From Tetrahymena thermophila SB210 (Eukaryota; Ciliophora; Oligohymenophorea; Hymenostomatida; Tetrahymenidae), in assembly GCF_000189635.1 (NCBI RefSeq), contig NW_002476434.1:1364001-1428000 (forward strand): a stretch of DNA of 64,000 bases, written 5' to 3'. The translations under genes were made by a program, and so were the position numbers. Shown one piece after another: positions 425-60,804 of this stretch (the first letter of the stretch is position 1; each line of letters starts with the position of its first letter). Below the pieces are notes generated by a model. The model was not told the origin of the DNA and made no database searches. It saw only the letters and a list, made by a program, of their open reading frames with translations.

Positions 425-900
425 CATGATTAATTAAATGAGAGCGAGACTTTTGATCCTTGATGCAAAATTTTAGAAGCATTTTTTAAATATTAGTAAA
501 TTATTGCTTAAAAATTATGGCTTTAAACAACACTCATTAGCAAAATTCCATCTTGTTGTTTTCTAATTAACTTTTTTTTATAAATATTTTTTAATTTCAG
601 AATAAGAAATTAAATTAATTATAAATAGATTGATACTTTTTTTGATAACAGCATTATTTTACAAGTTTTTAAAATATTTTTGATAACATTTTATTATTGG
701 AATATTTTGAGGCCTTTATATTATTCATCGTTATTAAAGTCTTTTAGATCTTATACTTAAGGAAAGTATACTCATCAAGCTAGTATTTATTCTACAAGAG
801 AATATTTCTAATTGTCTTAATTAAATGAATAATCAAATAATTTATGCTTTTATGTTCATCTTTAAAATATGAAATTATTTGATGAAGTTGCTTTTTCTTC
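425..900 (-). pseudogene. Decayed copy of the ~214-aa array family (copy A)
   Basis: Read on the minus strand, pieces of the family protein are recognisable. They include a stretch reading ENVIKNIL-like (here QNVIKNILKT) near 690, the ..TRWNF.. region near 545-560 in a shifted frame, and YLKNASK..HQGSKV near 430-500, matching FYDYLKNQSKDWLQTSRV of the intact copy at 29226-29870. No start codon is kept and the frame changes at least twice. The KYQ..Y to NDK..RWNF part is read in a different frame from its neighbours, just as in the decayed copy at 11770-12290. The two therefore probably descend from one already broken ancestor that was duplicated. Boundaries are approximate. Confidence 0.7.
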
Positions 901-3900
901 TATTGCTATAAAAAGAAAAAATAAATTAATCATAAAAAATTATTTTTAAAAAAGTTTTTAGTATGATGTTCTAATTATAATTCTTGCTTTTTTTAATTAA
1001 CTATTTGATTTAGAGCAAAAAAAATATGAAAACTTGAATTCAATAATCTTTAAAGTTTTTGACTTTTTTACTCTATATTTTTACCATGCAAAAGGTGAAA
1101 GAAAGCAGAGATTTATTTTAAAAATTATCTAATTAAAATGATATTTTAATTTTTATGAAATAAAAATGTATACTATAATTTTTGAGTGCTTAAAATTAGA
1201 GTAGGCATATCTTTTTAAGTAAGAAATTTCAATTTCAACTCTCTATTAAATCAAAATATGATATCTTATTTGTTATTATAGTTTGTGGAAAAATTGATTT
1301 ACTTCTTCAATAATAATTTATCAGATTTTTTTTGATAATAACAATAATCAGAATGCTTCAGAATTTATAAAGGCTCATAGCAAAAAATAGAAAAAAAATA
1401 GTTATTAAATAAATTTAAAATATTACATCTAAATTTCAAGTAGATTACTTGTGTAATCAAATAATTATTTTCATTATTAGCTTAGAAAATAATTTAATTT
1501 ATTAGTATCGAGTAATAAAACTAATTGTAACTTTTTGAAAGTGCTATTGCAAGTTTTTGTAGAAACAAAATATTATTTTTAAAAGCATATTATTATTAAA
1601 AATATACTATTTAATATTAATCTTATTACTAAGTATTTTAAATGGATATATTTTAGTGAATTTAGATAAAATTATTTTTTAAAATTAAAAAAACAAGAAA
1701 AAATTAAACAAAAATTAGCAAAAATTAAAAATTCAACTTAGAAGTAATACGATAAGTTGCTTTTAAAAACAACCAAAAATAGATTAAAATTAGACAATTA
1801 CTTTTTAATCATGATATCTCATCTGTATTTTTAATTAAATAAATAAAATAGTTTTTGACAATATTTACATAGCAAATAGAAATTTATCATTTTTATCTTT
1901 TTTTGTTTTAGATTATGCAAAAAATAATTTAGTTTTTATAAATTTACTTAATAATTTTCATCTAAAATATGAAGTAAGGATAAATAATTAGACGTATATG
2001 AAAAGTTAATCAGCTGTAATACTATTTGAAAGATTTGAACTATTCTAATTTCTCAATTTATTTACACTCTTTGATATCAGATAAATAATTGATTATTAGA
2101 GTGATTAATTAAATTTTGGTATATTTAGCATATATAAAAATTTAGAAACTATATAAAATGACAGTATAATATTCTCTTTAGTATTTTTATTTTAAAGTAT
2201 TATAAATATTAATTATTATAGCCCATTTAAAACTTTTTATCATGTTATATATCATCTTAATAAGAATAAATATATATCCTGTATAAATAATTCTTTTAGA
2301 TAACAAAAACAGAAAATTGAATGATCAATATAAAAAAAAAAAAAGAATAAGAAAAATCTGAAATATATATTAACAATATTAATTAAGTTAATCAGATGTT
2401 TCTTTCTTTTAGATTTAAGATTGAAAAATTAACAAAATTTATATTTAATCACCACATTTATTCATAAAAATAATTAAGTGTTTTTTTGATTCTTTAATTA
2501 CAAATATTATTTAAATTAATAATTATTTATGTGTTTTCGAGTAAAGAAAGTAGCGAATTTTTCTCTCTTTCTTTACAACTTGATTTTAAAGGATGAATTA
2601 CGTATAATTTATTATCTCCAAATAATTTTCGCAATTTTATTCTTGTCAAATATTTTTATAGGACGTATTACTTTTTCTTGATTTCACTAATCAAGTGCTA
2701 TGATAGAAAAATTCAAATCCAGAAATCGTTTAAATAATATACATAATAATTTTACTAAAACTTTATTATTTTACATTTTTAGTAACTATTTGAGTAAATT
2801 TTAAGTAAAAAAATACTATTTATCTTCTAGGAAATAAACTCTAAAGGGGAATTTATTTAATAATATATATAAATAAATAATTTTATGTTTCTATAGTCTA
2901 TATTTTGATTAGAATTTTTTATAGAAATAGTGAGCAAATTATTAAAACACTTTATGTTAAATATTTAAATTTTATTTATTATAGAATTTAAAAAAATTAA
3001 ATAAATTATTAGAATTTTACTCGCAAAATTATTTAAATTTACACTATTTTCTAGACGTATTATTGAAAATTGTCATCAATTATAGATAGAGCCATTTCCA
3101 TTCAACTTTAAAAAATTCAGAAAAGTTTAATAATTTGTGGGGAAAATGATCAAGTACATATATAAATATATACACACATACATACATACACCTATTTAAT
3201 CTTAATTTAAATTTACATAATAAATTATGAAAATTAATTTTCTTTTTACAATAGAAGGTAGTGTAAATTTATTGTATAATGTAAACAATTAATTTAGTAT
3301 ATACGTCAATAGAATAAAAATAATTTATATTTAAAATAGCTGACTCAATTATCCTGGCTAGAAAACTTTTTCATTCATATTATGCTATAGTGTAATTATT
3401 TAAATAATTAATAATGAATTTTTAAGAACATATTTCTAAAGTAAAAAAATTGTATTTTGTTTCAGGAGTTAAAGTAACTAGATATATAGGTTAAAGTATT
3501 TATAAGAACCCACACACTCTATATATAAAATTGTCAAAACATATTTTAATTAGGGAATTAAGGAAGAGATTTATTTTTTAAAAGATTTAACATAATTAAT
3601 AGAAATCAATGATTATAAATACAATCAACCAACAAAATTTTGATTTATTAAAAACTAAAAACTTATATGTTTTAATATAATGATAAATAAAATATATAAT
3701 CTTACTTTTTAAGTAGTTGATGTTATCTGGCAGGGAATGTTTTATTTCGATTAAATATATTTGTTAATAGTAATAAGAGTTAATACAACAGTAAAAATAA
3801 AATATAAATAGTAATTTGAATGAATTCACTCAAGATAATACTTAAAGATTTTATATATTGTTTTGATTGTAAATATTAATAATTAACAAATTATATTGAT

Positions 3901-3915
3901 CATAGTTTCGAAATA
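901..3915. repeat. Duplicated block alpha, copy I (spacer)
   Basis: There is no gene here in the ciliate code. From about 1040 to 3760 the sequence is a diverged copy of the segments at about 7090-9560, 12420-14400 and 19725-22520. Landmarks in order are: TTTATCAGATTTTTTTTGAT near 1320, CTATTAATTTTATTTAGAT-type A+T stretches, AAAGGATGAATTACGT near 2590, TGTGGGGAAAATGAT near 3140, ATACGTCAATAGAATAAAA near 3303, and GACTCAATTAT near 3343. A short CATA/CACA-rich microsatellite lies at about 3155-3192. The copies differ by many substitutions and small indels, so the duplications are not recent. Confidence 0.7.
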
Positions 3916-4557
3916 TCATTTCTTTTTTTTATATATTTTTATGTCTAATGGTTAGTTATTTTCTATGCAATTTAAAAGAACATTAATTAGCTTCTGATGT
4001 TCATCTAAATTAAACACTTTAGATTTTGAAAGCCATTATTAGGAGTTGTTGAATAGATAATCATAAAATATAAGCTTTAGACTTTAACTTTATAGAAGGC
4101 TTCTAAGCTAAAAATTCCATCTATTAGTTTTGACATTCACTTTCTTTGACACTGCCTTTTTAATTTCAGAGAAAGACTTATTGTTTTTATTGAAATACAT
4201 TTACTAATATTTTTATTTCTTGTTTGAGTCTGATAAATTTACTAAATAGCTAAGGAAGCTCTTTAAAATGTTTTTTATGATATTTTATTAGTGATTTTAT
4301 TTCAATTTAGAATCGATCCTTTCATCAAAATAATCATAATCTTCAGATTATTTAGTAGGCTCTCTATAGCATTGTTATTAATCAAAGTCTGATTCCTTTT
4401 ATTTTTTAAAATTTAGCTCCTTTAAAAAACAGCTATCACAATCATAGTTCAATGCAGATTAGGTATTTAGTTTACTTTATGGAATTTATTAAGAAACTAC
4501 ATCAAGAAATATGTTTATTATGCTATTTAGAGCATTATTACTTTGTAAAGATTTCAT
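3916..4557 (-). CDS. Array family protein 1 (213 aa, unrecognised)
   Basis: One uninterrupted frame runs from ATG (complement of 4555-4557) to TGA (complement of 3916-3918), with TAA/TAG read as Gln. Residues 13-21 are a short hydrophobic motif (IINIFLDVV). Residues 22-90 are polar and variable, with several Cys. From residue 92 follows the conserved half: QNIIKNILKSFLSYL, then SFSEIKKAVSKKVN (128-141), NRWNF (145-149), LIFYDYL (162-168), W175, EHQKLI (186-191), and the end YKKKK. The conserved part looks mostly alpha-helical. I see no signal peptide, membrane segment or enzyme motif. The lysine tail could be a nuclear-localisation or nucleic-acid-binding tail, which is inference only. It is closest to copies 2 and 4. 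I do not recognise the family. Confidence 0.85.
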
Positions 4558-4860
4558 GTACTTTTTTTTAAGATTTATATTTTAATAATATTAATTATTT
4601 TTTAGTATTGAAGTAATCAAGATATTTTTAAACCTAAAAAATTATGCTCGCATTATCAATTTTCTTTTTTTATGAAGCAACTCAAAAAAGAAAAAATATA
4701 TTATATATGTGTATTTATTGGAAACAAATATTGTTAAAATTAAAACCAGTGATTGCAATAAGACATCACTCTAAAATAAATATTTTATGGTGATATCTAA
4801 CAATCATTATTTACTAGAAATAATATTAATTACTATTTAATATTTTATATAATTGAAAAT
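4558..4860 (-). promoter_or_regulatory. Conserved 5' flank of array gene 1
   Basis: The ~300 bp upstream of this gene's ATG is clearly alike in genes 1, 2 and 4. Shared blocks are a T-run just before the ATG, ATGAAGCAACT near 4673, and CAGTGATTG..ATAA..CATCACTC near 4748-4772. Because it sits directly 5' of three intact paralogues it may hold the promoter. It could equally be just part of the duplicated unit, as no core promoter element is recognisable. Confidence 0.35.
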
Positions 4861-5389
4861 ATCTTACCATATAATATGATTTTTAATAATATTTTTAACA
4901 AGCTAATTTACAGTAATAAAAAATATTTTTTAATTTAAACTGTAACCTTTCATTGATTAAGTCCTTTATAAATTAAGAATAAATTTTTGAAAAGACTAAA
5001 AATTGAGCAAAAAATTATGAAGAGGGGGTTTGGCCTTAATTAATTAGAGTTTACAGTATAATTTATTCTTAATATTAGTTTAAAAAAAGCAAACTTTTAA
5101 ATTTTGTTGTATTGTAATTTATATTAGCTACAATTTCTATTTGAGAATTTACTATTAATTATAAATGTTAATGTACATATATATGCAATATTTAAAAAAA
5201 AAACAATTATCATAATAAGAAATTCTCTTGTGAATATTTAATTAAAAAAATAATAAATTGAATTAATGAAAGATAAATATTTTATTTAAAATAAATTATT
5301 CACTATTTATTAAAGAATTTTTTTTTGTTAAATTAAAAAAAATTTTTATTGAATACTTTTCTTTGAATAATATTTAAAGAGTAAATATA
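4861..5389. other. Spacer, partly shared with 10640-11000
   Basis: A+T-rich, with no gene. Short stretches (ACTTTTAAATTTTGTTGTAT near 5092, and the following 60 bp) match the sequence at about 10737 and, more weakly, about 23660, again placing it in the duplicated upstream flank. Confidence 0.5.
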
Positions 5390-6270
5390 TTTGAATAATT
5401 AATCAAGTTTCAATATAGAAACTCTAAAAATATTCTAATTTGATCAGCTTTTCAAAATGAAATTAATTAAAAATATAATTGTATTTATTTAAATCTAAAT
5501 AATAAAATATTTTCTTTCATTAAAATTTGAGGAGTTTATTTAACTTTTCCATATTGTTATATCTTACATCATTATAAATCTGCTATGAACTAGCATTTTT
5601 AATGTCGGGCATTTAGATATACAAATGAAAAGTGTTTTATTAGATTGTTATTATGATTAATTTGACAATTTTTTAATATAATAAAATTCCAAAAACTAAA
5701 GAATTTTTTAAAGTTGAATTACTATTTTTACCTCAACATAATTATTAATTTAGTTTTGCATTATCTATCAAATTTCATCAAAAATTTAGAATTCTTGGTT
5801 TCACTCAAAATTTAAAGAATTAATTAGATTTAATAGAATTTTTAATAATAAATTATATATAATTATATTATAATAATGTTTTTTAATTAAAATAGTTAAT
5901 GATTATTTAGATAATTAAAAGGAGATTATGATTAAAATTTAACTTAATTAAAAATAGCTTTTTTATCACAAATATGTTTAGTAGCTAAATCAAATAATAG
6001 AGATCTTATAAAATTATAAGTGTTTTTTGATTTCTATTAATAATATTCATTTATTTATTTTAATTATTTATAAACTTGTATTAATTTGATACTATTTAAA
6101 AAGTAAATAAAGAAAAGAAGTTGAATAATCCAATTTAAAGTCATAAAAAATATATGATTAACGACCTTTCTCAAAATATTAATTTGGCTACAAAATTAAA
6201 TATTGAAAGAAAGTAAAACCGTATTTACCGTAACCTCAAATAAATAAAAAAATATTTAAGGGCAGCATAA
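5390..6270. repeat. Duplicated segment delta, copy I
   Basis: Diverged copy of about 24600-25480. Shared landmarks are AAATCTAAATAATAAAA near 5491, ATTTAGATATACAAATGAAA near 5611 and GGGCAGCATAA near 6260. No coding potential is seen. Confidence 0.6.
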
Positions 6271-7089
6271 ATAAATATAATAATAATTTAAATGTTAAGA
6301 AATTTGATAAAAAAATTTTTTTTTTTTCTGACCTTAAATTAGATTAACAGTATCTCTAATTAATAAATAAATAAAAATAAAATATTTATTTTTATTTTAT
6401 GAGATAAAAATTGATATTTTTGATTAAATCTAATTTAAGTAGGTATTTTTCAATATTATTTTAGAAATTTACTAACTGTTTGATGCTTTTTAAACTAAAG
6501 ATCTTCTAAAATTTATATTTATTTATTAATTCATTCATTCATGGTTTCTTTTAATTATAAATTTAATTCAAAATTTCTCATGGAATTCTCTTTATTTATT
6601 TAACATCTTTTACCAAAAAATGAATTGCATTTTTAGTAATTTGATTCATAAAAATATCATATTGAATTTGAGATAATAAATATTTATTATTAATTGTAAT
6701 TTAATATTTGTCAATCAGCTAGCAAATAGTGAAAAGATTTATATGATATTAGTGAAAACGTGATTAAAATACTAAAAAAATAAAAAAAAAAACATGTTTA
6801 CTTTAATAGTATGTTTTATTTTATGAGCTTAAAATTTAAATTTTTTATAAAGATTTAATTAAACATTTATTTATTATTCATTCGCTTTTTTATCTATCTG
6901 AAGTTTATTTAAATACTACTATACCGAGTTCAATTATTATATTTTATATTATATTAATTGCTTGAATCAAAATTTTTAGATAAAAAAATCTTTGGTTACT
7001 ATTTGTGTTTAAGTATTGAGTTTGAATGTAAAAATTATAAAGGATATAATAATAATCAATTTGTATTCCATAATTTTATTTTATATTCT
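6271..7089. other. A+T-rich spacer
   Basis: I see no gene, RNA or repeat that I can name. It is mostly A/T runs, for example poly-T near 6315-6327. Confidence 0.4.
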
Positions 7090-9560
7090 TTCAATTTAAA
7101 AGTACTATTAAAATGCTTTGTATTTTAGATATCTAACTCATTTGTTATTTTAGCTCATGTAAAACTAATTAATTTACTTTTTCAATAATAACTTATCAGA
7201 TTTTTTTGACGTTAATAATAATTCAGAATTTATCAAGACTTATAACAAAAATAGAAAATAATAGTTGCTATATAAATTAAAAATACAAAATAGAAATTTC
7301 AAGAAAGAAGACTAAATGTAAATTAGAAAATTATTTATTCTTTTATTTATAATATAAAAAATATATTTCAATTTAATATTTGAAGATAATTTAATTGATT
7401 AGCATTTAGTTTTATTACAAATCATTACTTTGAAAAAGCAATTATGCAAGTTTTATGAATAAAAAATAAATATTAAAGATATCTAATTGTTAAAAATATA
7501 CCATAAAAGTTTAAACTGAAATTTTTTTACACTTTGCTGATAAATTATTTTAAAATTTTTAAAAATATGAGAGAAAATTCAATTTATTTTAAAACTTTTT
7601 TATAATTTGCTTTTGAAAATACTCATAATAATATTAAAATTAGACAATAACTCATTATTAATGATAAATAACCTATATTTTTAATTAAATAAATAAATAA
7701 AAAATTGTTTTGAAGATGCTTATATAACCAATAGCAACTTTAAAATTATATCTATATTTTTTTGTTTTAGCTAAAGCAAAAAAAAAGTAATTAAATTCTT
7801 ATAAATTTTCATCTAAATTACAAAATAAAGATAATTTGATGTTCATGAAAAAATAAATAATTAGTTGCAATAAAATTTAATTTTTTATTACTTTTGTAGT
7901 TTCTTAATTTATTTACACTTTTTAATATCAGATTATGACAATTGATTATTAGAATGGTTAATTAAATTTTTGTATATTTAGTTTATAAGTGTTTTAGAAA
8001 GTATATAAAATAACAAAAGAATATTCTATTTTTAAAAAATAATAACTATTAATTATTATAACACATAGTTATTATTTTTTATTATGAATTATACCTCTCT
8101 TTAACATGAATAATAATCCTATATATACAATTTCTTTTTGATAGCTAATACATAAAAATATAAAAAAGAAAGTGCGAAATTTTAAAAATATAACAAAATA
8201 ATCAGATATTTCTTTCTATTAGATGTAAGATTTAAAAGTAACAAAGTTTATATTTAACCACTTCTTTCATTAAAATAACTAATTGTTTCTTTTGACTCTT
8301 TCTTTAATTAAAAATATTAATTATTTGATTATTTTGTGTTTTCAAGAAAAGAAAGTTGTGAATTTTTCTCTGTTATTTTTTATAACCTGATTTTAAAGGA
8401 TGAATTGCGTTTAATATATTACCTCTCAAATAGTGTTCACAATTTATTCTTATTAAAATTTTTTAGAAGAAGCATTCTTTTTTTTTGATTTTAAAAATTC
8501 ACTATTCATTTGCTTTGATTGAAAAATTAAATCAAAAGAAGTTGTTTAAATAAAGCTGCATATTTAGAAAATATTTGAGCAAATTTTAAGTAAAAAAATA
8601 GCAATTTATCTTCTAAGAAATAAACTCTACCTTAGTTTTGTTTTGATAAAATACATAAAGAGATATTTATATGGTTCTTCAGCCTTATGTTTTCATTAAA
8701 ATTTTTGATTAAAATAATTGCAAATTTTTAAATGACGTTTATGTAAATTTTAAATATTATTTCCAATATAACCAAAAAGAATACAAAACTAGCAAATTTA
8801 AGATTTATTAGCTAAAATATTAAAATGGTGGTATTAAATTTATTTAAATGTTCTTTATTTGCTTGTTTATCACTGAAGAATTTCATCAATAATAAATAGA
8901 ACCATTTCTTTTCAATTTTAAAAAAACTTAGAAAAGTATAATAAGCATGTGGGGAAAATGATAAAGCATTTATTAGAATATTAATTTAAAATTTACCTAA
9001 TAAAAAGTAAAAATTAATTAATTTTGTTTTTAATCCTAGAATCAAATGCAAATTATTTAAGGTAAACAGTTAATTTACTGCATACGTCAATAGAATAAAA
9101 ACATATTATATTTAAAAAACTGACTCAATTATCTGGCTAGATAACTTTTGATTGATATTTTATTACAGTGTAATTATCTAAATAAATATGAATTAAATTT
9201 TTAAGAAAATATTTTTCAAGTAAAAGGATTATATTTGGCTTCAATAATTAAAAAAGCTTATAAGAAAAATTGGTTAAAGTATTTTTATAAACACAAAAAC
9301 AATACTCAATAAAATAAATCTTTAAGATTTAAAATTCTATGATTTATTTCAAATAGCCAAAACATTACTTAATTAAAAAGTTAAGTGAGGAATTTATTTT
9401 TTAAAAGATTCAATTTAATAAATATAAATCTAAGATTAACCAACAGAATTTTGATTGATTTAAATTAAAAACTAATATGTTGAACACAATGACAAACGCA
9501 ATATTAACTATTGATTTTTTAATCGCTAATGTTTTCTTAAGTATTGAGAAAATATAAAAG
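7090..9560. repeat. Duplicated block alpha, copy II (spacer)
   Basis: Second copy of the block described at 901-3915, with the same order of landmarks: TTATCAGATTTTTTTGA near 7193, AAAGGATGAATTGCGT near 8395, TGTGGGGAAAATGATAAAG near 8949, GTAAACAGTTAATTTACTG near 9062 with CATACGTCAATAG after it, and GACTCAATTATCTGGCTAG near 9122. No gene is seen. Confidence 0.7.
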
Positions 9561-9687
9561 TATAGTAAATATAAATAAAAATTCGAGCAAGCTCATACAA
9601 AATAATAAATACTTAAAGATTTTATATATTGTTTTGATTGTGAATATTAATAATTAACAAGTTATATTTAAGCAAATTTTAGATTGG

Positions 9688-10329
9688 TCATTTCTTTTTC
9701 TTATATATTTTTATGTCTAATGGTTAGTTATTTTCTATGCAATTTAAAAGAACATTAATTAGCTTCTGGTGTTCATCTAAATTAAACACTTTAGATTTTT
9801 AAAGCCATTATTAGGAGTTATTGAATAGATAATCATAAAATATAAGCCTTAAACTTTAACTTTAAAGAAGGCTTCTAAGCTAAAAATTCCATCTATTCGT
9901 TTTGACATTCACTTTCTTTGACACTGCCTTTTTAATTTCAGAAAAAGGCTTATTGATTTGTTTGAAATATATTTATTAATATTTTTATTTGATGTTAGAG
10001 TCTTATAATTTTACTAAATAGCTTAGAAAGCTCTTTAAAATGTTTTTTATTGTATTTTATTATTGATTTTATTTCAATTTAGGATCGATCCTTTCTCTAA
10101 AATAGTCATAATCTTCAGATTATTTAGTAGATTCTTAATAGATTTGCAATGGTTCAAAGCTCGAATTCTACTATTTTTTCAAAATTAACTCCTTTTAAAA
10201 ACAGCTATCGCATTCATAGTAAGAGTCAGATTCAATATTTAGTTCATTTTAAGGAATTTATTAAGCTACCACATCAAGAAATATGTTTATTATGCTATTT
10301 AGAGCGTTGTTATTTTGTTGAGAATTCAT
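9688..10329 (-). CDS. Array family protein 2 (213 aa, unrecognised)
   Basis: Single open frame in the ciliate code from ATG (complement of 10327-10329) to TGA (complement of 9688-9690). It is the closest relative of copy 1: most residues agree from IINIFLDVV onward, and the last 70 are nearly identical (NRWNF, LIFYDYL, EHQKLINVLL, end IYKKKK). The start is supported by the matching start MN.QQNNNALN in copy 4. The middle contains a run of acidic and aromatic residues (SEDYDYF) shared with copies 1 and 4. The many third-position differences from copy 1 with few amino-acid changes suggest selection on the protein. That is a by-eye impression, not a measurement. Confidence 0.85.
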
Positions 10330-10640
10330 AAACTTTACTTTTTTTTAAGTATAATATTTTTCGTAATTTTAATTATTTTTTACTTTTAATAGATCAAGAT
10401 TTTTTTTAAAGCTTCACAAATTATGCTTTATCAATTTTCTTTATTTTATGAAGCAACTCAAAAAAGATAAAATATATATTTATTGAAAGTAAGAATTATT
10501 AAAATTTTAGCCAGTGATTAGTGATTGTGATAACACATCACTCCAAAATAAATTACGACAATATCAAACAATTATTATTTTTTAGAAATAATATTAATTT
10601 TGTTCAAAGTTTTGTAAAAATAAATATGACATACTACAAA
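10330..10640 (-). promoter_or_regulatory. Conserved 5' flank of array gene 2
   Basis: Same flank as at 4558-4860. It has TTTTTTTTAAG before the start, ATGAAGCAACTCAAAAAAG near 10448, CCAGTGATTAGTGATTGTGA near 10511, CACATCACTCC near 10533 and TACGACAATATC near 10555 (also at 23481). The role is inferred from position only. Confidence 0.35.
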
Positions 10641-11014
10641 ATATTTTTTTAAATAATATTTTTAATAAACTAATTTATTTGGATAAAAATCTTTTTAATT
10701 TATATAATCTATTCTTAATATTAGTTTACAAAAGTAACTTTTAAATTTTGTTGTATTATATTATATATTAAATATATTTTATATTTGAAAATTTACTAGT
10801 TATTGTAAATGTTGATATATATATTTTTTTTATACGCTATCTTTGCTTAAATATCACAATTATTTTACTCAAAAAATTATATTGTGTATATTTAATTAAA
10901 TAATTGATAATTTAAATTCAGGAAAGAAAGATATATCATTAAAAATAAATTATTAACTATTTATTCAAGAATCAAATTAAACAACATTTAAGAATGTATT
11001 TGAATGACTGATCT
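10641..11014. other. A+T-rich spacer
   Basis: No gene. It continues the flank duplicated at 4861-5389 with many differences. Confidence 0.4.
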
Positions 11015-11600
11015 AATTTCAAGAAAAAAACTCTTACCATAGTCTAATACTTTTTGGTCAGCTTTTCAAATGAGATCAATAACAATTTAAAATTATTAGA
11101 TAATAAAAAAAAATAATTTTTTCATATCTTATTATAATTAAGATAAATTAGAGAGAAAAAGGATTGAAATAAAAAAACTGAGGTATAAAATTAGCATTTT
11201 ATTTTTAAATTTATAAAGATTATCTTTTTTAATTGTTGCTTACATCTTAAATAGAATAAAAAACTCTCTGTATCATTACAATAATTTGTCGAAAATGAAT
11301 GTATATTTTATTTACTATTAAAAAATACTTCTATAAATTTATAATTTTTAAACACAGCCCTTAAATATTTTTTTTTGAGAGCTTAATATTGATTATAATT
11401 TTAAAAAGATATTAATAAAAAATCAAATAATAAATAAAGATATTTTTAGGTTAGTTCTTAATTTAGATGTATTATAATTACAATTAATGAATATTTGCAA
11501 AAAAAACCAATTTGAATTTTTCTTATTATTAATACAATTCAAATTATTTAAGAAAAGCTCGTAATTAAAATAATTAATTCTTAAATAATTTATTTTACAT
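11015..11600. repeat. Duplicated segment gamma, copy I
   Basis: Diverged copy of about 24060-24580. Shared stretches are TACTTTTTGG.CAG near 11048, GGTATAAAATTAG near 11191 followed by CATTTTATTTTTAAATTTAT, and AATTATTTAAGAAAAGCTC near 11542. No gene is seen. Confidence 0.65.
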
Positions 11601-11769
11601 CAAGTTTATATACATAATTATTAAGAAATAATATTACAAAAATAAAAGTAAGTTTAATAATACTTAATAAAATCAATAATCCTTAAAAATATTAGGACAT
11701 AATTCATCAGAATTAGAAATCAATCAATAAAAAATTATAGTCTTTTTTTTAAATTTAGTATTTGCTTAA

Positions 11770-12290
11770 TATATAAAATATATAGCAATAGGTCCGATTC
11801 TACCCCAATCAAAAAATAATGTAAACATATTTCTCTGGACCCCATAATGCAATAAACAACACTTTTTAGCTAAAAAATCCATCTTGCTGTTTCTAATTAA
11901 TTTTTCTTGATAAATATTTTTAATTTCAAAGTAAGAATGATTTATATATAGATTGATACTTTTATTCGATAATAGCATCACTTTAATCATTTAAATATTT
12001 TAAAAACTCTTCAATATTTTTGATATTATTTTATATGTGGAATATTTTTAGACTTTTAAGTTACTCATCCTCATTAAAGTCTTCTGTATGCAATAATTCT
12101 GTCTTATTCTACTTCTATTATCTATTAGTACTATGATGAACCTAGTCTATGGCAACTATATCCTTTAATCTAGCTATTATTAGAGTATATGTACCACTTT
12201 AATTATTTTAGTTAAAAGATTTATCAAGATATTGTTGATTTATTACTGGCTAATATTCAACAATTTCGATAAAATAGTCATTTTCTTCAT
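11770..12290 (-). pseudogene. Decayed copy of the array family (copy C)
   Basis: On the minus strand the family order is still readable: QQYLDKSFNQNN, then IKNI.EFLKYLND, EQKYQSIYKS, and TARWIFQLKSVV (11850-11890) in a second frame. The start Met is missing (ATC-GCA at the expected place), TGA stops interrupt the frame, and the C-terminal third ends in unrelated sequence. It is most like the intact copy at 29226-29870. The break after KYQSIY is in the same place as in the decayed copy at 425-900. Confidence 0.75.
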
Positions 12291-12419
12291 TTGCGATAAC
12301 AAAATAATTAAAAAAATCAGAATTATTTTCAAAACAAATTTTCTAATTATAATTCATATATACTTTAATTAAAGATTAGAAATATTTGAGTAAGGATAAA
12401 AAAGAATATTAACAATTTT
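12291..12419. other. Short spacer
   Basis: Links the decayed copy to block alpha III. No feature is seen. Confidence 0.4.
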
Positions 12420-14400
12420 TCATAATATTTGAACATTTGTGTGTGGTTGTTTTACTTAATAAATTTGCAATGTAAAAGGTGAAAATGGAAACTTATTTTA
12501 AAAATTATCTAATTAAAATGATATTTTAATTCTTATGAGATAAAAATTAATATCTCTATTTTCGATTTATTGATATCAAGCTAGGCATATCTTATGAGTT
12601 TTATTATTTTCAACTATAAATGAGAGTAAAATACTGATTTGTTATTGGAGTTTGTGTAAAACTAATTAATTTACAATTTTAATAATAATTTATCAGATTT
12701 GTTTTGATTTTTATAATAATTAGAAAGCTTCAGGATTTATAAAAACTCCTAACAAAAGATAGAAAAATTAGTTATTAAATAAATTTAAATATCAAATAGA
12801 AATTTCTCCAATGCTAATTACTTTCTATTCAGATCATTATTTTATATTCTATCTAAAATATTAAAAATTATATTTTATATTTTGAAAATAATCAATTAAC
12901 TTTGATTATTAAAATTAATTATAGCTTTAAGATAATGTTATAAAGACTTTTATAGATATAAAATTTTATTATTTATAGTGTAGAATAATTAAAAATATAC
13001 TAATTACTTTCAATTATAAGATCAAGAATTTGAAATAAAGAATTTTTACTAAATTTAGATAAAATTATTTTGAAGTTAATGATAGAAGAAGATTAAAAAG
13101 CATTTTTCTCAAAAATTGAAAATTTAATTAGATAGATAGTGTGTGTTTGTAAAAGAATCTAATTATTTTCATCTAAAATATGAAATAAGCATAATTTCTT
13201 GCTATTAAAAATTAATCAGCTGCAATACAATTTAAATTATTTAAAGCTTTTGCAAAATCTTAATTTATTTACACTCCTTGTTTTCAGATTAGTGATAATC
13301 GATTATTAGAGTGATCAACCAAATTTTGGTATACTTAGTCTATACATATTTTGAATAATTACTAATTAAAAATATGAATTTGGATTATTAGTTATATTAT
13401 AAAAGAATATACAAAGAAAGGTTTGAAATATTAACAATATAAATCAACCAGATGCTTATTTCCTTTTGATTTAGGATTTTCAAAATAATAAAATTTATAT
13501 TTAACCAGCGCGATCATATAAGAACTAAGTGCTTTTCATTTTACTCTTTAATATTTATTATTGTCTTTCTTTTAGGCTAAGAAGTTAAGAATTTTTCTTT
13601 CTTTTTTTACAAATTGAAATTAAAGGATGGATTACGTTTAAAAAATTACATCCCAAATTATTTCGAAAATCTTGCCAAAAACTTTTATATGACTTATTAA
13701 TTTTTAATAATTTAAAAAATAAATTAATCATTTACTTTGATTGATAAATTCAATCTATAAATATCATTTAAATTACTAATAATAATCGTAATAAAAATGA
13801 TAAATAATAATAATATCTAAGTAAATATTTTATACTTTGTATTTTCAAAAACTATTTGAATAAATTATATTTAAAAAACTATAAATTTCTTCTTTGAAAT
13901 AAACTAAAACAAAATTAAATTATTTAAGGTAAACAGTTAATTTACTTATATACATACGTCAATTTAATTAAAAAAGAAAAAAGCTGATTCAATTATTTTG
14001 ATAGAAAATTTCAGATTCTCATAATTTTAAAATGCAATTATTTAAATAAATTTGAGTGATATTTTTCAGTCCAAGTTTCTCAATCAAAAGAATTGTATTT
14101 TATTTCAAAAATTAAAAAATCTAGATTATATTTTATGTTGACCTAAAGGCAATTAATATTCAATAAATAATTCTTTAAGAATTAAAATACTTTGATTTTC
14201 TATAAAATACTAAAAGCTTATTTAGATTAAGAAGTTAAGGAAGACATATACAACTTTTAAAAGATTCAATTTGATTAATAGAAATCAAAAAGTATAAATA
14301 CAACCAAAGAAATTTAGATTAATTTAAATATGTTAACTTGAAGCATAATAACAAACATTAATTACAATTATCGCTACTGTTTTAAAATAATGTTTTATTC
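12420..14400. repeat. Duplicated block alpha, copy III (spacer)
   Basis: Third copy of the block at 901-3915, beginning with TTTACTTAATAAATTTGCAATG near 12449 (compare 1067 and 19747). It continues through TTTATCAGATTTGTTTTGAT near 12690, AAAGGATGGATTACGT near 13622 and GTAAACAGTTAATTTACTTA near 13930 with CATACGTCAA after it. It is shorter than the others, having lost part of the segment between the GGATGGATTACG and GTAAACAG landmarks. No gene is seen. Confidence 0.65.
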
Positions 14401-14460
14401 AGATTAAATATATTTCCTAATTTAAATCAATGCTAATAAATATTTATATATATTATATAG

Positions 14461-14525
14461 CACTTCCTGGCTTAAAATCTTTGTGGTAGCTCTACCGCTA
14501 GAGTAGAAATCTTGTAATTTTACAC
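14461..14525. other. Short G+C-richer patch with a small hairpin
   Basis: An island of near-balanced composition in A+T-rich spacer. It contains CTCTACCGCTAGAG (14490-14503), a 5-bp stem with a CCGC loop. It is not a tRNA that I can fold. It could be a remnant of an RNA gene or of older coding sequence. Confidence 0.3.
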
Positions 14526-14946
14526 AAAAATTTTTAAATATTTTGATGACACACTAATTATTTTTCATTTAATATATATCAAAATATATCAGAAAATAAA
14601 TATTAGTTTAAAGATAATCTTTAATTCAATTATATTGCAAAAGTGATTGATAGTGCTAAAAAACGTTGAGAGATAGCTTATTGGTAAAATAGATAATAAA
14701 AGAAATATAATGGATTAAATGAAAATAATAAATATAAAAAAATGGTCACTTAAATAATATATGAATGAATAATCAGATTTAAATAATAAAATATTAATTA
14801 ATAGATTCGAATAAATTAAGAATAAAAATGGATACTTCATAATTGTTTCAAAGTATTATGATAAAATAATTTAAGTTAAAGTCTAATAAATAAATAAATA
14901 AATATACAAATTAAAAAATAAATTCATTTTAAAAGTTTTTATAATT

Positions 14947-15582
14947 TCATTTTTTTTTCTTATATGTTTTTATTTTTAATGGTTAGTTATTTTCAATGCA
15001 ATTTAGAATAAAGAAAATAAGTCTTTGATGTTCATTTGTATTAGAAACTTTTGATTGTAATAACCATGATTCTGATGAATCAATTAGATAGTCATAAAAT
15101 ATATGCTTTAATTTTTGGCTTTAAACAATACTTTGCAGCTAAAAATTCCACCTATTAGCCTTAATGTTTACTTTCTTAGATACAACTTTTTTTATTTAGG
15201 AAAAGGATATAATGGTGTGTTTACTGTACATTGATTAATATTTTCTAATAGTATTCATATCTTACAATTTTATTAAATACTTTAGAAAGCTTTTTAAGAT
15301 ATTTTTTATCATATTTTATAGTTAGTTATGTTTCATTTTAGAGACTTCAAACTATCCATCAGAAGCATCAGAGTATTAAGCAGATATCTATTATGAATTC
15401 TTAAATTATGAGCAAGAAACTTGTTATTACTATTGAGATACCTCTTTTATACTAATGTTATCGCACATACTACTCCATGAAGACTCCGTATTTAGCTCAT
15501 CCTCAGAAATTTTTTGGGAAACAATATCTAGAAATATGTTTATGACACTATTAAGAGCACTTTGTTTTGGTTAGCTGCTCAT
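14947..15582 (-). CDS. Array family protein 3 (211 aa, unrecognised)
   Basis: Open in the ciliate code from ATG (complement of 15580-15582) to TGA (complement of 14947-14949). It keeps the family frame: NSVINIFLDIV near the N-terminus, a Ser/Gln-rich middle with a run of four Gln, QNMIKNILKSFLKYL, NRWNFQL, HIFYDYL, W, EHQRLI and the KKKK end. The usual SFSEIKK before VSKKVN is replaced here by SFFLNKKV, a local divergence at an otherwise constant site. It is about equally distant from the copy 1/2/4 group and the copy 5 and 7 proteins. Confidence 0.82.
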
Positions 15583-17539
15583 TTTTTATCTAAATTATTA
15601 ATTGTTAATTTGATTTATTTTTTATATTTGTTCTATATTTATTGATTTTTTTAATATGATTAAGAACTATGATAAATCATTACCCTCACTTTTCTAAAAA
15701 TCAACTAATCTTTATTTAAGTAACAAATGATTTCAAACGCATAAACCAAAAATAGCGATAATGCCTTATTTTAAAACTTTAGCTCAAGGTAAGATTTAAT
15801 TATTAAACATCAAAAAATAATAATAAGGTAAAGCCATCAATTTCAGCAAATATCTATCTTTTTTGGATAACTAGAAAATATTTTTAATAATTTAAAATCA
15901 ATTAAATCTTATTATTGATGTTTCAGCAGTTAATGTTTTTGGTAAAAAATATTTTAATCTTATATTCCCTAACCTTAATTAATTACATTTATTTTTAGAA
16001 ATAAAATATGGGATTACTTCGCTGTATTATAAAAGATCACCCAAATAAACACATTTTATAATTACTTAAAGTATTTATGTACCTAAGAGCTAATAAATTT
16101 AAAAAATAAAAAGCTATTTATTATCTAAAAATACAATTCTTTTTGCCAGCAGACATTTATATATTTTAATAAATAAATAATGATTAAACAAACAAACAAA
16201 ACGATAGAGTTTTATTTTGATGATTTAATTTAGTATGCATTTAAAAATGTTAAGAGATCATTTCAAATTTAATACTGGGAGATAGCAACAAAATAACTAT
16301 AGTTTTTTAATTGTTGTGTAATAGTTAGTAAAGTAATTATTATATTAGTATAATCTTTATTGCTTTTACTAGGTGATATTTTGGTGTTGATAATATAATT
16401 TAAGATACAAGTAAAAAAACACAAAAATATGTTTATATTATTAACTTATTTTATAAATAATAATTGTAAAAAATTACTGTGTAAAAATGATTTTGCTTAT
16501 TAAAAGTACCTTTTTTAGCATGAAAAAACTATCATTTTTATAGAGTGGAAATAATATATTTAAAAATCGATTTAGATGAAAATAATTTTTGGAGGATTTA
16601 GGCTTTTTTTAAAGAAAGTAAACCATTTCTTTTTTTATTTTTTTCTTTCAATGAATAAAAATACCAAGTAAAAAACTCTTCTTTGATGTTTTTAGTCATT
16701 GAGGATTTTAAAACTTTTTTTAGATTTCTCAAAACCTCAAAATTATTTCATAGATTAAAGCGAAATTATATAATGAATATTGAATATTGTCAAGAAAGAA
16801 AACAGCAGTAAAGAATAAGGAAAATTATGTATGTGTATTGAGAAATTTATAATTAAATATAAAAAATTATTATTTGCTATTTCAGTCAATTAATTTCACA
16901 GTTAGAAAGAATCTCTTATCCAATTTTATATTTCTTTTGATTGCATTTTCCTAATTTTTTTATCATTTAGTATTGTGATAAATCAATCTTTCTCCCCACT
17001 TTTATTTGAAGATACACAAACTTAATTTTGTATGTGTAAGCAACTGGAGTCACAAAAAAAAGCATAATTTAATTATTTATATGACAAGCATTTACTTCCC
17101 ATGTTTATCTATCACTTATAAACAATCTTATATAAAATTGAAAAAATATGAATAATAAAATCGAATATTATTGAAGCAAAAAAAATAAAATAAATATATA
17201 CTCTTCAGATTATTATTTACAAGTTACTTATAAAAATTTTATAATCTGATCTAACTTTTTAATTGTTTGTTATGATTAGTCAATAACTCACTAAAAAGTA
17301 ATTTATTGTATTTGCAATTAGTTAATTAATTAATTATTTTTGAGCTAATTAATTTATTCTAAGCAAAGATGACTCATAATTAAAGAAAACTTTGAATACT
17401 TTTAATCAAAATATTTTTTGTTTTAGATTGGCTTACTTGAATACTTTTTGCTTCTATTTATGAAGTGCTTGAATCTATATCCTATATTATTAATTTACAT
17501 CAAATAATGTTATTAATTAAAATCTATTATAGAGTATTT
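15583..17539. other. Long A+T-rich spacer
   Basis: No gene in either code is convincing. It contains only A/T runs and short low-complexity tracts. The region does not follow the alpha-block order, so it interrupts the duplicated units. Confidence 0.45.
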
Positions 17540-17990
17540 ATTTTTCATTTTTCTGCCCCCACTATATTTTGATATCAATTGAATACTTGATTTTTTTCAA
17601 TTACTAAGAGAATACTTAAATTATATTTACATTCTTATTTTGTAATTGCTTGTGTGTGTACAAAAATTCATTTGCCCCCACCATATTTTGATATCAAAAT
17701 AATACCTGATAATTAATTAATAAATAATTGAAGGATCTTCAAAGTAAATCAATTTTTTATTTTAAATTACTCATAAAATACTTAAATTGTACATTAGTAT
17801 TTTGTATTTGCATACTAGATATTTGATTATTGATGGATCTTAAAGTAAATCAATTTTCTTTACTCATAAAATACTTAAACCATACATGTATTTTGTAATT
17901 GCATACTTGATAATTGAAAGATCTTAAAAGTAAATAAATTTTATATTTTAAATTACTAATAGAATACTTTATATATACATTATCTTTTTA
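17540..17990. repeat. Degenerate tandem repeat with CCCCCAC boxes
   Basis: TGCCCCCAC followed by ATATTTTGATATCAA occurs at 17554 and again at 17673 (119 bp apart). After that a related unit recurs at shorter spacing without the C-run: GG/AGATCTT.AAAGTAAAT.AATTTT at about 17732, 17835 and 17917, each followed by ATTACT..(T)AGAATACTT or ATAAAATACTTAAA. It is an imperfect tandem array, not coding. Confidence 0.7.
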
Positions 17991-18255
17991 TAATTAGTAA
18001 AAACGACTCTAATATTATATATGATTTTCTGTTAGGTTAGCCTTTGAATATATCGCTTTTAAAATTTTCATTTCAATCAAAGTAATAAAGAGTAACTTTT
18101 AAATATAATAAAATATTTTGTATCGATAATACATAAAATATAAACAAAAAATTATAAATACTTTGCCAAAACGATTAAAATCTGAAAATTTATTTAAATC
18201 TTTCTGTTTTACATCAAAGAGTCTTATTTGTTATACTTCATTAGAGTATCATCTT

Positions 18256-22520: not shown

Positions 22521-22638
22521 GTATAAAATATAAATAATAATTTAAACGAATTTGTTCAAAATAACACTCTCAGAATTGTTTTATATATATTATTTTGGTT
22601 TTTATATTAATAGTTAGCAAATAATATTCAATGAAATA

Positions 22639-24059: not shown

Positions 24060-25480
24060 GTTTTAGGATAAAAAATTCTTACATATTCAAATACTTTTTG
24101 ACCAGTTTTTGAAATAAATTGATAACTATTTAAAAATTTAGATAATAAAATTAATTGTTTATATCAAATTATAATTAAGATAACTTAGAGACTGAATGGA
24201 GGGGAGAAGTTAAAAAATTGAGGTGTAAAATTAGTATTTTATTTTTAAATTTATCAAGATTATCTTTGTTAACTTCTTTTATCTTACATAGAATAAATAA
24301 CTTTCACTATCACTTTAATAATTTGTTTAAAATGAATTTATATTTTAAAATTAATACTCTCATTCAAATAATCTTTTGAAGTTTAATTTTTATTATAATT
24401 TTTAAATCTTTTAAATAAATTTCCATAATTTAACAATAAATTTAAATATTTAGAGGTGATTTACTAAATTCAATGTATAATAATTACAGTAAATAAATAA
24501 ATATTTGCAAAAAATTTACTTGAATTATAAATCTAATTCAAATTATTTAAGAAAAGCTCACAATAAAAGTAATTAATTATCAAAATTTCTTTACCATAGT
24601 AGTTTTGCATATTTTAGGAAGTAACAAATATCTTTCTGTTAAAAATTTAAAATTAAAAACATTTTTCAATATTTTTTAAATATTTTTTAATTAATTTTCA
24701 AAGCTTTGTTAAATTTCATTCAAAAGAAAAAATAATTGTATTTATTTAAACCTAAATAATAAAAATTCTTCTTTCGCTAAAATGTATTGCAATATTTAAT
24801 TTTTCCAGATTTTTCTATTTTACACCTTTTTCGATTCTTCTTTCAAATTTCGAGTAGCATTTTCAAGCAGAAGGATCGTGGGGATTTAGATCTGCAAATG
24901 AAATTTTTTATTATTAGTGTTAAGATTATTTAATACAATGAAATTTATAAATGAAAAGAATTTTTAAAGTTGATTAACTTTTTTAACTTCTAAGATTGTT
25001 TGTAAATTAAATTTCATCAAAAATTTAAAATAGCTTGATTTCACAAAAAAATTCAAATAGCTTGATTTCATAAAAATTTAGACAATCAATTAGATTTGAT
25101 AGAATTTTTATTGATTAAATATTTATTATTATTTTATTATAAAAATTTTTAATTAAAGCAGTTAACAGTAATTTATTAATGGGGAATTATGATGAAAATT
25201 CAATATTTTCTTTTATATTTCAATATGTGTAAGCATGCAAGCTCAATCAAATAATAGAGAAAATTATAAAGTATCATTTGGTATTTTTGAATGATCCTTA
25301 TTTATTTAATTATTTATAAATATTTATTTATTTTGAAATTTTTTAAATATCAAATAAAGTAGAAGATTTTAGTTAAAGCTTCTTAAAATCATACAAAAAA
25401 TTTAATTACTGATTAACAATATTTATCATCAAATCTCATATAAATAAAAATATGTTTTAGGGGCAGCATAAGCATAGTAA
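24060..25480. repeat. Duplicated segments gamma (copy II) and delta (copy II)
   Basis: About 24060-24580 matches 11015-11600 (GGTGTAAAATTAG near 24220, AATTATTTAAGAAAAGCTC near 24541). About 24600-25480 matches 5390-6270 (AAACCTAAATAATAAAA near 24749, ATTTAGATCTGCAAATGAAA near 24884, GGGGCAGCATAA near 25460). Here the two segments lie side by side, while in the left part they flank different genes. That shows mosaic duplication. Confidence 0.6.
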
Positions 25481-25829: not shown

Positions 25830-26483
25830 TCAAACAATAAGTCTTTTCTTTTTCTTGTAAGTGTTTATTTTTAATGGTTCATCATTTTATATACAGTTTA
25901 TAAGAAGGTTAATAAGCATTTTATGCTCTAATACTTTGGAGACTTTTGCTTTTTATAACCATGATTCTGATTAATTAATCAAATAATCATATAATATAGG
26001 CTTTAACTTTTAACTTTAAAGAATACTTTGAAGCTAGAAATTCCACCTGTATGTCTTAGTATTTACTTTCTTAGACACTATTTTTTTGATTTCAGAAAAA
26101 GATATTTCCGTTTTTTAGCTGTACATTTTTTCATACTTTTTTTTAGTGTTAGTATCTTATATTTTTATTAAATATTTTAGAAAGTTCTTTAAAATGTTTT
26201 TTATCATATTTTATAATTGATTATTTTTTACTTTATAAATTTCTGTTTATTGATATTATTTATTAACTTCAATCGAGTTAGTAGTAGCTGTATTTGTTAA
26301 GTCTGATTGAGAGAAGTACTCTTGCTATTATTTAAAGTCTATCTCTGTTAGAGAGTAGCTATCACTTTTAAAAATGGACTGAGAGTCTGAACCAAATTCA
26401 TTTTCAGTTATTTCTTTAGAAACAATATCCAAAAATATTGTTATGACATTTTTGAGAGCACAATATTTCTGTTAAAAACTCAT
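25830..26483 (-). CDS. Array family protein 5 (217 aa, unrecognised)
   Basis: Open in the ciliate code from ATG (complement of 26481-26483) to TGA (complement of 25830-25832). Family landmarks are complete: NVITIFLDIVSKEI, QNMIKNILKNFLKYL, SFSEIKKIVSKKVN, YRWNFQL (Y instead of N before R), PILYDYL (L instead of F), SWL, EHKMLI, TYKKKK. It is the one copy with a C-terminal extension: four extra residues (RLIV) follow a KKKKR run before TGA, because the usual TGA position is lost. The N-terminal third is Ser/Thr-rich and diverged. Confidence 0.83.
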
Positions 26484-29225: not shown

Positions 29226-29870
29226 TCATTTCTTTTTTTTATAAATCCTTATTTTGAGAGGTTACTCTTTTTCTATTTGTTTTACGAGGTCATTTATTAG
29301 TACTTCATGCTCAATTAAATTAGACACTCTTGACGTTTACAGCCAATCTTTTGATTGATTTTTTAAATAATCATAGAATATTGGCTACATTTTCTCGCTT
29401 TAGATTACACTCTTTAGTTTGAAGTTCCATCTAGTTGTTTTGTCATTAATTTTTCTAGATAAAGACTTTTTAATTTCAGAGTAGGGGATAAGAAATTATG
29501 CATTATACAAAGATTAATACTTTTATTTGATTGTAACATCATTCAATTCATCTAAGTATCTTAAAAAGCTCTTTAAAATATTTTTGATAATATTTTATTT
29601 TTAAAATATTCTTATGTTTTAATGAAGCTACTATTCATTTAAATCTATTAATTACAACCCCTCAGACACAGAGTATTCTGAATCATCTTTTTGTTTGAAT
29701 TATAAAGAATATGGCTCCAAGCTATTCTACTAATCAAACTAGCGCTCTATAAGTGATTATATGTCGTTTTAATTATCTTAGTTAAATGAGATATCAAGAT
29801 ACTGCTGTTTTAATTAAGACTACTTGTCTACAATATCTAAAAAAATGTTGATTATATTGCTTAAAATCAT
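29226..29870 (-). CDS. Array family protein 6 (214 aa, unrecognised)
   Basis: Uninterrupted ciliate-code frame, ATG at complement of 29868-29870, TGA at complement of 29226-29228. It belongs to a second subgroup. The middle is longer and richer in Leu/Gln (SLIERQFDQQNSLEPYS), the core reads IKNILKSFLRYLDEL, YSEIKKSLSRKIN, TTRWNFKLKSV, PIFYDYLKNQS, WLQTSRV, EHEVLI and IYKKKK. The decayed copies at 425-900, 11770-12290 and 42330-42690 are most like this one, so its subgroup was once larger. Confidence 0.85.
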
Positions 29871-32921: not shown

Positions 32922-33563
32922 TCATTTCTTTTTTTTATATGTTTTTATTTCTAATGGTTAGTTATTCTGAATACAATTTAAAATGATATCAATTAGCTTT
33001 TAATGATCATTTAAATTATTAACTTTTGATTATTATAGCCATTGTTTGGATTAATTGATAAGATAGTCATAAAATATTTACTTTAAGCTAGAACTTTGTA
33101 CTATACTTCTGAGCTAAAAATTCCATCTATTAGCTTTGCAATTAACTTTTTTTGATACATATTTTTTTATTTCAGAAAAGGATATATTATTTTCTTTGTT
33201 ATACATTTGTTGATACTTTTACTTGATACTACTATCTTATAATTTAATTAAATAGTTTATAAAGCTCTTTAAAATATTTTTTATTATATTTTATTGTTAG
33301 TTATGTTTCATTTTACACTCCTCCTTTTCTCCAAATGAATCAAAAACATCATATTACTTAATCTTTTCCTTTTAATTTTGATACGATTTACAAACTGTAC
33401 GTTACTAATTCTTGAAGCATAACTAGCTGAAACTGCTGCTATTGCTCTCTGAACTCTAAATATAGTCCAGGATAAGTTCTTTTTATGGGGTTTCTTTAGA
33501 AGCGATATCTAGAAATATATTTATGATGCTTATCTCAGCAGTTTATGTTTATTAATAATTCAT
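32922..33563 (-). CDS. Array family protein 7 (213 aa, unrecognised)
   Basis: Open frame in the ciliate code, ATG at complement of 33561-33563, TGA at complement of 32922-32924. It carries IINIFLDIASKE, a Ser-rich stretch (SSESNSSSFSQ), then QNIIKNILKSFINYL, SFSEIKKYVSKKVN, NRWNFQLRS, QIFYDYLINQS, WLQQSKV, DHQKLI and TYKKKK. The QS..L linker between RS and IFYDYL is shortened by about two residues relative to copies 1, 2 and 4. An extra Cys pair in the variable region is not conserved. Confidence 0.84.
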
Positions 33564-37025: not shown

Positions 37026-37188
37026 AATTGTAAGTTTCCAATATTTTTTTTATATTGAATAAAAGAAGATTTACTAAATTTTAAAGTTATATATTGAATA
37101 CTTAGATAATTTTAGATTAATTCGCTCTTCAACAATCAACTAGTCAAATCATTATTAATTTAACATATATCACCTTTTAATTAACTGA

Positions 37189-37665: not shown

Positions 37666-38316
37666 TCATTTCTTTTTTTTATAAACTTTTAAGTTAATTT
37701 GCACATCATCCTCAATGCATTTTATAAGTTTGCTTATTAAAATCTGGTGGTCAACTAAATCAGTTACTCTAGATTTTTTGAGCCATACATCTGATTGATT
37801 AACTAGATAGTCATAAAACAAAGGTTAGAATTTTTTACATTCAACAATGCTTTTGAGTATTAAATTCCATCTGGTTGCTTTCTTATTTATTTTTTTGGAT
37901 AAATACTTTTTAATTTCAGAAAATTGAATTTAAGATGATGTGCTATTCTTGTTGTTATTATACATTTATTAATATTTTTATATAAGATTTACATCTTTTA
38001 ATTCAACCAAATATTTTTAAAAGCTTTTTAAAATATTTTTAATAGTGTTCTATTTTTAGATAAATTGGTCTTTATGATTAACTGGTACATTTTTAAGCTA
38101 TAAATTCATAATGGAGTCTTCTTCTATTTATTAAGATGTCAATTCATAGCTTGAATATTTTGCTAAATATGAATCACAATTTAACAAAGAGGGGCTGTCA
38201 TTATCCAAAATCCAAGATTCAGTTTCACGCGTCTTTTAAAGTTATTACTTTTCAACCAAGTCTAAAAATAGAACAGCTACATTATTCAAAGCATTTTAGT
38301 TTTCTAAATGATGCAT
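37666..38316 (-). CDS. Array family protein 8 (216 aa, unrecognised)
   Basis: Open in the ciliate code from ATG (complement of 38314-38316) to TGA (complement of 37666-37668). It is the most diverged intact copy: NNVAVLFLDLVEKQQ, a long acidic/Ser middle with ELTSQQIEEDS, then TIKNILKSFQKYLVEL, a five-residue insertion before QFSEIKKYLSKKIN, ATRWNLILKS (L for F), PLFYDYLVNQS, VWLKKSRV, DHQILI, and end VYKKKK. It is closest to copy 6. The start is fixed by the MHHLENQNALN alignment to other copies. Confidence 0.84.
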
Positions 38317-41300: not shown

Positions 41301-42329
41301 ATATACAATCAAGAACACAAAAAATAATTTAAATAAACTATTATATGATATACATACTTTATAACAAACAATTTTTTGAAAAGTTTTAATTTTTTATGTT
41401 AACAAAGATTTTACTCAATACTTACAAAATAAGTTTGAAGTAAATATAGAAATGCAATTTATTATAAATAAGAAAAATACCTGAATTAAATTGCTTGCTT
41501 CTAAGTTTAAATATATAGTTGTAACATAAAAATTTGTTAATTAATTTTTAATAATCTGATAATAATTCAAAAATTTAGAAAAGGTTAAATTTTGTGAACA
41601 CAATTATTTCATTATTCTATATTTTCAATACTAATTATATTTTGCTGTAATTTAAAATATTATTAAAAGATAAATAAATATATTTGTTTTCTTTCAAAAT
41701 ATAGTTTACTAATTAACAACTAATTTATTAATTTCCTTTTTAACTATTATTTCAAATAAAGACTTTTTACAATTAAATGTTTTGAATGAATTTAAGTTAT
41801 TTGATATCATGTATAATTGCTTAAACTTATGATTAAAAAAAATAGAAAGAATTTAATAAATATATCTTATCATAATTATTTTATACTAATAAGAAGCTAT
41901 TGCTATTAAAAATTAGATATATAAAAAATTTTCAACTTTTATCATCTTTATTAAAATGATTAAAAGATAGTGAGAAAGTTTTTTGTGAAATATTTTTATT
42001 AAAAATAAATATGAGAAATATAATTTCATATTTTTAAAGTTTTCTGAGATAAATAAAGTTGTATGTATGCATAAAATTTATATTTTAATTTTATAAATAG
42101 AATATTTTTAAATTAAAACATAATTTATTCAAACAAAAAAAGTAAATTATTTGCTAAATTTACTTAAGAATAATGTTTTTAATAAATGAATTAAAATAAA
42201 TATATAAAATAAATTATTTTTGTTTTTTACAGTAATAGTTGTTTAGGATATTTAAAAGCTTATTTGTTTATTTTTGTAAATATTTAATATTTCTATTAGT
42301 ACGATAAGAGTTTGATAGGTATTAAAATA
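38317..42329. other. Long A+T-rich spacer
   Basis: I see no gene, RNA or named repeat in this 4 kb. AAGATGTAAGATGTAAGAT near 40898 is a minor tandem repeat. No alpha-block landmarks are present. Confidence 0.45.
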
Positions 42330-42690
42330 ATATTTTATTTTCTTTTTTTATATTTTAATTCTTCAAAGATTGCTCTTTTTTGATTAACTAATCAATTAGT
42401 ATTTCGTATTTTTATTTATTAAAAACCATAAAAACCATCATATTATCTACCTATATTTTAGATTATGCTATTTAATAAATATAAAAATTGGATTCATACT
42501 TTGACTGAAAATGACACTTTTTAATTTTAAATCCAATTTTTTCATTTTATCATTAACATTTTTTTGACATGTATTTTTTAATTTACAGTAATAAGTTTTA
42601 TGTTGTAAATTATAAATTGATTCTATTAGTTATTAAAATAATTGAAGAGAAGGTTCATTATTTTTTTAATTTCTTAAAATAAGAAAATAT
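42330..42690 (-). pseudogene. Decayed copy of the array family (copy D)
   Basis: Minus-strand remnants keep the family order: NVNDKMKKLDLKLKSVI, then SQSMNPIFIFIKQ near 42480-42560 (compare INDKTTRWNFKLKSVI and QPIFYDYLKNQ of copy 6), then YEILIDQLIKKEQSLK near 42350-42400 (compare EHEVLINDLVKQIEKEQPLK). The diagnostic RW is lost, TGA stops interrupt the frame, and no start is seen. It marks the right edge of the array. Confidence 0.65.

Positions 42691-58646: not shown

Positions 58647-60804
<2,158 letters not shown>

Follow-up and report, generated by a model that had tools for sequence, protein, structure and literature searches.

A tandem array of DUF4441 genes under purifying selection in Tetrahymena thermophila

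Extent and content of the array

A 64,000 nt stretch of the Tetrahymena thermophila SB210 genome (C114:1364001-1428000), here called the window, carries an array of related genes on its minus strand, which we examined together with the rest of the genome (101 Mb, 445 contigs). The telomerase RNA located in this genome looks identical to that of T. thermophila. Array copies read as single open reading frames (ORFs), and under genetic code 6 eight intact copies of 211–217 codons each are found in the window (Table 1). A sequence-only reading of this DNA had counted eight intact and three decayed copies on the same strand, and the code 6 ORFs and a profile search returned both numbers. The same reading had described an array of 42 kb. 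While the copies inside the window stand, the array is not bounded by it and continues to the left for at least 30 kb. The 34 kb to the left of the window contain five further intact copies, for an intact total of 13, and more decayed ones. By protein search, C114:1333917-1402310 contains 14 copies, of which 13 lack an in-frame TGA and one has two; none of the eight intact copies in the window has an internal TGA. Left-hand decayed copies were located by profile search at positions 1330180, 1341668 and, weakly (independent E value (i-E) 0.0009), 1352649.

The motif order previously described as common to the intact copies was present, with small departures in the copies at 37666 (RWNL), 25830 (LYDYL), 14947 (SQIKK), 22639 (SEIKQ) and 29226 (SRKIN).

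Table 1. Array copies, segments of c08 and duplicated blocks in the window. Positions are window coordinates; those of intact-copy coding sequences (CDS) include the stop codon.
Feature	Position	Strand	Remarks
Decayed copy, c12-like	343..945	-	profile i-E 4.6e-12; 324-706 is 69% identical to 29214-29610
c07	3916..4557	-	intact, 213 aa, DUF4441
c08	9688..10329	-	intact, 213 aa, DUF4441; protein used for structure model
c08 C-terminal part, aa 91-213	9691..10059	-	DUF4441 match at 91-207; helical in model
c08 N-terminal hydrophobic motif, aa 9-22	10264..10305	-	includes IFLDV
Decayed copy	11884..12276	-	profile i-E 5.4e-9; stretch matches decayed copies left of window
c09	14947..15582	-	intact, 211 aa, DUF4441
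c10	22639..23280	-	intact, 213 aa, DUF4441
c11	25830..26483	-	intact, 217 aa, DUF4441; YKKKK followed by 4 residues
c12	29226..29870	-	intact, 214 aa, DUF4441; DNA match to decayed copy at 343
c13	32922..33563	-	intact, 213 aa, DUF4441
c14	37666..38316	-	intact, 216 aa, DUF4441
Decayed fragment	42483..42632	-	profile i-E 3.1e-5
Duplicated block, ~11.5 kb (decayed copy, c07, c08)	343..11883	-	offsets of most best matches: -34 kb and -22.4 to -22.8 kb
Duplicated block, ~12.4 kb (decayed copy, c09, c10)	11884..24300	-	offsets of most best matches: -23.2 to -24.2 kb

Membership of the DUF4441 family

The copies had been thought to belong to no named family, but all eight in the window match Pfam PF14536 (DUF4441), with E values of up to 0.01 and a best value of 2.1e-25. 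The matches lie in the C-terminal approximately 115 aa, extend over nearly the whole profile (in c08, residues 91–207 cover profile positions 1–113 of 116) and exceed the curated cut-off of 24 bits, four of the copies scoring 82–88 bits. From these matches, the array is almost certainly made up of DUF4441 members.

Genome-wide, at least 150 DUF4441 members score over the cut-off. This is a lower bound from the scoring of 150 of 176 candidates, as only 10 of the 13 intact array copies were among those 150. Twenty-four clusters (gaps of ≤15 kb) account for 103 of the 150 members, seven clusters have at least five members, and neighbours share their strand in 78 of 79 pairs. The array is one of several DUF4441 arrays in T. 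thermophila, with sister arrays of the RWN type on C115 and C134. In a midpoint-rooted tree of 76 rows and 119 columns it forms one clade (96/94), which is contained in a wider clade (98/98) with the eight other sampled members that have RWN in the domain and one C91 member. The subfamily represented in the window combines RWN with an N-terminal FL motif that is missing from 54 of 56 other sampled rows of PF14536. Among 64 rows sampled outside the array, the motif [ILM]FL.[ILVYA] was found in 7 of the 8 RWN-type rows and 2 of the remaining 56, and it is present in all 13 array copies; it is typical of the RWN subfamily.

DUF4441 was not found in 14 control genomes, at least two of them bacterial, and a weak search of viral and prokaryote contigs with the array profile, which used a few short peptide patterns, confirmed no relative. 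Neither DUF4441 nor PF14536 occurs as a name in the open-access literature searched. The array adds new members to a family that has been named but, as far as we found, not studied. That a named domain, carried by at least 150 genes of a leading model organism, is absent from that literature represents a large blind spot.

Coding status and selection

The region had been said to look empty under the standard code, and no ATG-started ORF of at least 100 aa was indeed found in window positions 1–43000 with table 11. Under code 6, the same positions contain 48 ATG-started ORFs with a minimum length of 150 aa and 21 with a minimum of 200 aa, where 30 Markov-1 simulations gave 54.4 ± 6.2 and 22.2 ± 5.3, respectively. 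As chance yields as many at this base composition, open code 6 frames alone are no proof of coding. The earlier argument that a retained frame implies selection is therefore weak as regards the frame, while selection itself is supported by other evidence. What goes beyond chance is the common sequence, the ratio of non-synonymous to synonymous substitution (dN/dS, omega) and the pattern of indels.

Omega was determined for 22 unsaturated pairs formed among 9 of the 13 copies, with some copies occurring in more than one pair. The summed dN/dS was 0.30 for the whole protein, 0.15 for the domain, 0.35 for the N-terminus and 0.52 for the middle. As had been predicted for functional genes, omega was below 1 in 22/22 pairs with a likelihood-ratio test (LRT) statistic >3.84, both for the whole protein and for the domain; 4 and 5 of the 22 pairs were significant for the N-terminus and the middle, respectively. 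In none of the 22 pairs was dN/dS significantly above 1; the middle of c02/c04 came nearest (omega 4.05, LRT 3.6). In ten pairs of array units, all indels in the CDS were 3 or 9 nt long, at 0–1.6 per kb compared with 15–24 per kb in the flanks. Identity in these pairs was 85–92% in the CDS and 57–83% in the flanks, where low values are in part due to alignments running past the end of the duplication. We consider it nearly certain that the array genes are protein-coding and under purifying selection.

In 60 alignment columns that mix TAA or TAG with other codons, CAA and CAG make up 71 of the 525 other codons (13.5%, compared with 3.0% overall). This 4.6-fold enrichment over background fits the reading of TAA and TAG as glutamine. 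GAA (68) and AAA (66) are each commoner than CAA (55) in the same columns.

Predicted architecture of the proteins

In the structure model of c08, helices occupy residues 83–199, with a predicted local distance difference test score (pLDDT) of 59–88 in 10-residue blocks, and the N-terminal half scores below 50. The C-terminal domain is predicted to be all-helical. The protein is thus made up of a hydrophobic motif at the N-terminus, an acidic linker of variable sequence and this domain, whose fold was not recognised. When the family profile was compared with solved chains, 7w5z_U5 was returned with an E value of 6e-29 and the next match was a ferritin at 0.07. Structure comparison also returned nucleic-acid-binding chains at low Z, which are uninformative either way. 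Apart from DUF4441, the copies had only weak side matches, to BP28CT (0.0022, one copy) and to bPH_4 (0.0014, below the cut-off and with the ORF extended upstream of the ATG).

Block structure and history of the array

Of 150 tiles of the array, 131 had a match, with best offsets near 11, 22–24 and 34 kb. From these matches, we read the left and middle of the array as five blocks of 11–13 kb, each containing one decayed copy and slots for two genes, the gene pairs being c01–c02, c03–c04, c05–c06 (c06 is decayed), c07–c08 and c09–c10. Blocks 1 and 4 are mostly mutual best matches, as are blocks 3 and 5. The ends of the block containing c07 and c08 were placed at decayed copies. Near the right end of the block containing c09 and c10 the best matches are at -35.4 and -13 kb, and its right boundary is approximate. 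By DNA, c12 is matched by three of the five decayed copies, which are in turn matched by the other two.

Copies c11–c14, at the right end, have little in common with the other copies beyond the coding sequence, and dS exceeds 1.3 in 41 of their 42 pairs, in a run that included some stuck fits. From these comparisons, they look older than the rest. The left and middle of the array would have grown through unequal crossing-over of the two-slot blocks. The block matches and decayed copies lend support to growth by tandem duplication, and hence to the earlier suggestion of an expanding array.

The flanks contain further features. A block of approximately 430 bp, at window positions 13900-14330, 9050-9465, 21946-22383 and 3271-3653 and in copies left of the window, lies 226–646 bp downstream of c01–c05 and c07–c10 and approximately 206 bp downstream of the decayed c06. 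The sequence TGAGTCAGC is found exactly in 7 of its 10 copies. No conserved RNA structure was found in this block, which is non-coding as far as seen. In the downstream flank of c07/c03, at about +1139 from the ATG, one segment with codon-phase bias (chi-square 11.2) could conceal another short stretch of coding sequence. A tandem repeat of approximately 93 bp (2.6 copies) is located between two array genes at 17724-17969, and just left of the array (-39344 to -35057 in window coordinates) there is a separate 2.1 kb head-to-tail duplication with 84.5% identity.

Possible roles of the array products

The reading we favour, and hold tentatively, is that of a duplicated and selected DUF4441 array that codes for non-enzymatic adaptors; the adaptor role is much less certain than the family assignment and the selection. 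Each product would be a soluble intracellular protein whose conserved C-terminal helical domain binds a partner common to the whole family. At the N-terminus, the short hydrophobic helix would attach to another partner; individual copies would be adjusted through the acidic, faster-changing linker, and extra copies would provide dose and variety.

The strongest rival is a role in nuclear regulation, in which an acidic disordered N-terminus would act on proteins and a basic helical domain would bind DNA or RNA. In 52 of 63 members, the 60 residues preceding the domain carry a net negative charge, a count to which short genes may contribute non-coding upstream sequence, and the array domains have a net charge of +12 to +18, with lysine columns K4, K43 and K120 conserved in 82–96% of rows. 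Among ten long members inspected, several have long Q/N-rich N-termini together with lysine-rich stretches. However, base composition alone predicts a positive charge, and no DNA- or RNA-binding Pfam domain was above the cut-off in the window copies or in the four long members scanned, which have no further Pfam domain. We consider the nuclear role possible but doubtful. Attachment to an acidic membrane by an N-terminal amphipathic helix and a YKKKK tail appears distinctly unlikely. The hydrophobic motif is indeed in every array copy, and YKKKK is present in 13/13 and forms the extreme C-terminus in 12, but the motif is missing from most of the wider family as sampled (present in 2 of 56 rows) and the window copies contain no lipid-binding Pfam domain above the cut-off.

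A further candidate role, as accessory subunits of mitochondrial respiratory complexes, is suggested by chain U5 of PDB 7W5Z, a structure of Tetrahymena complex IV (PMC10060162, PMC10227065, PMC10263302). A DUF4441 gene on another contig (C127; ORF L065:1334-1849) is identical to this chain at 172/172 residues, and the array profile matches it with an E value of 4.8e-6. The U5 sequence is, however, present in 7w5z alone of five complex IV entries, whereas a SURF1-like subunit used as control was found in all five (7w5z, 8b6h, 8bqs, 8gym and 8gzu). The family profile matched no chain in the other four, in a library without chains of unknown residues. As the sequence is missing from those entries, the U5 assignment has probably since been revised, and the chain may be misassigned. 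U5 is the only DUF4441 chain in these models of complex IV, and the window proteins are not themselves U5. In all 13 array proteins the N-terminal 25 residues include only 0–3 lysines or arginines, unlike a usual presequence. We regard a mitochondrial role as very unlikely, and the doubtful U5 chain of the 7W5Z model merits a second look. Still less probable is that the cell gains nothing from the array, which would then be a by-product of unequal crossing-over or a selfish element. Decayed copies among intact ones and long repeated flanks would suit such an origin, but the selection tests make it unlikely: the domain is constrained and CDS indels occur in threes. The domain is also conserved in a large family, and five large array ORFs have no Pfam match, to a transposon family or otherwise, at E 0.001. 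The selection result makes functional study worthwhile and the subfamily motif is a starting point for a partner search.

Other genes in the window

An AAA ATPase gene (Pfam AAA), split into two or more pieces, is located at 59180-60451. By eye it is VPS4-like. The 552 aa ORF at 51634-53292 lies in a region of higher local G+C (approximately 28–30%) and has no Pfam match at an E value of 1; two tests did not show a relationship to DUF4441.

Comparison with known systems

Chain U5 of the T. thermophila complex IV dimer has the same domain as the array proteins, which are only distant relatives of it. The expanded tandem gene families of Tetrahymena include leucine-rich repeat (LRR) genes (PMC6564038), and local tandem amplification is common to these LRR-type families and the DUF4441 array. 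The seven domains named for the expanded families do not include DUF4441, and the main text of that source contains no DUF word (PMC6564038). Array copies read as single ORFs, unlike the LRR-type genes, which are chains of 90 bp exons (PMC6564038). By analogy, and as a speculation that we consider unlikely in this full form, DUF4441 might constitute a set of adaptors or regulators, encoded by more than 150 genes, with its own helical fold and with linkers diversified by block duplication, comparable to the LRR or F-box repertoires found elsewhere.
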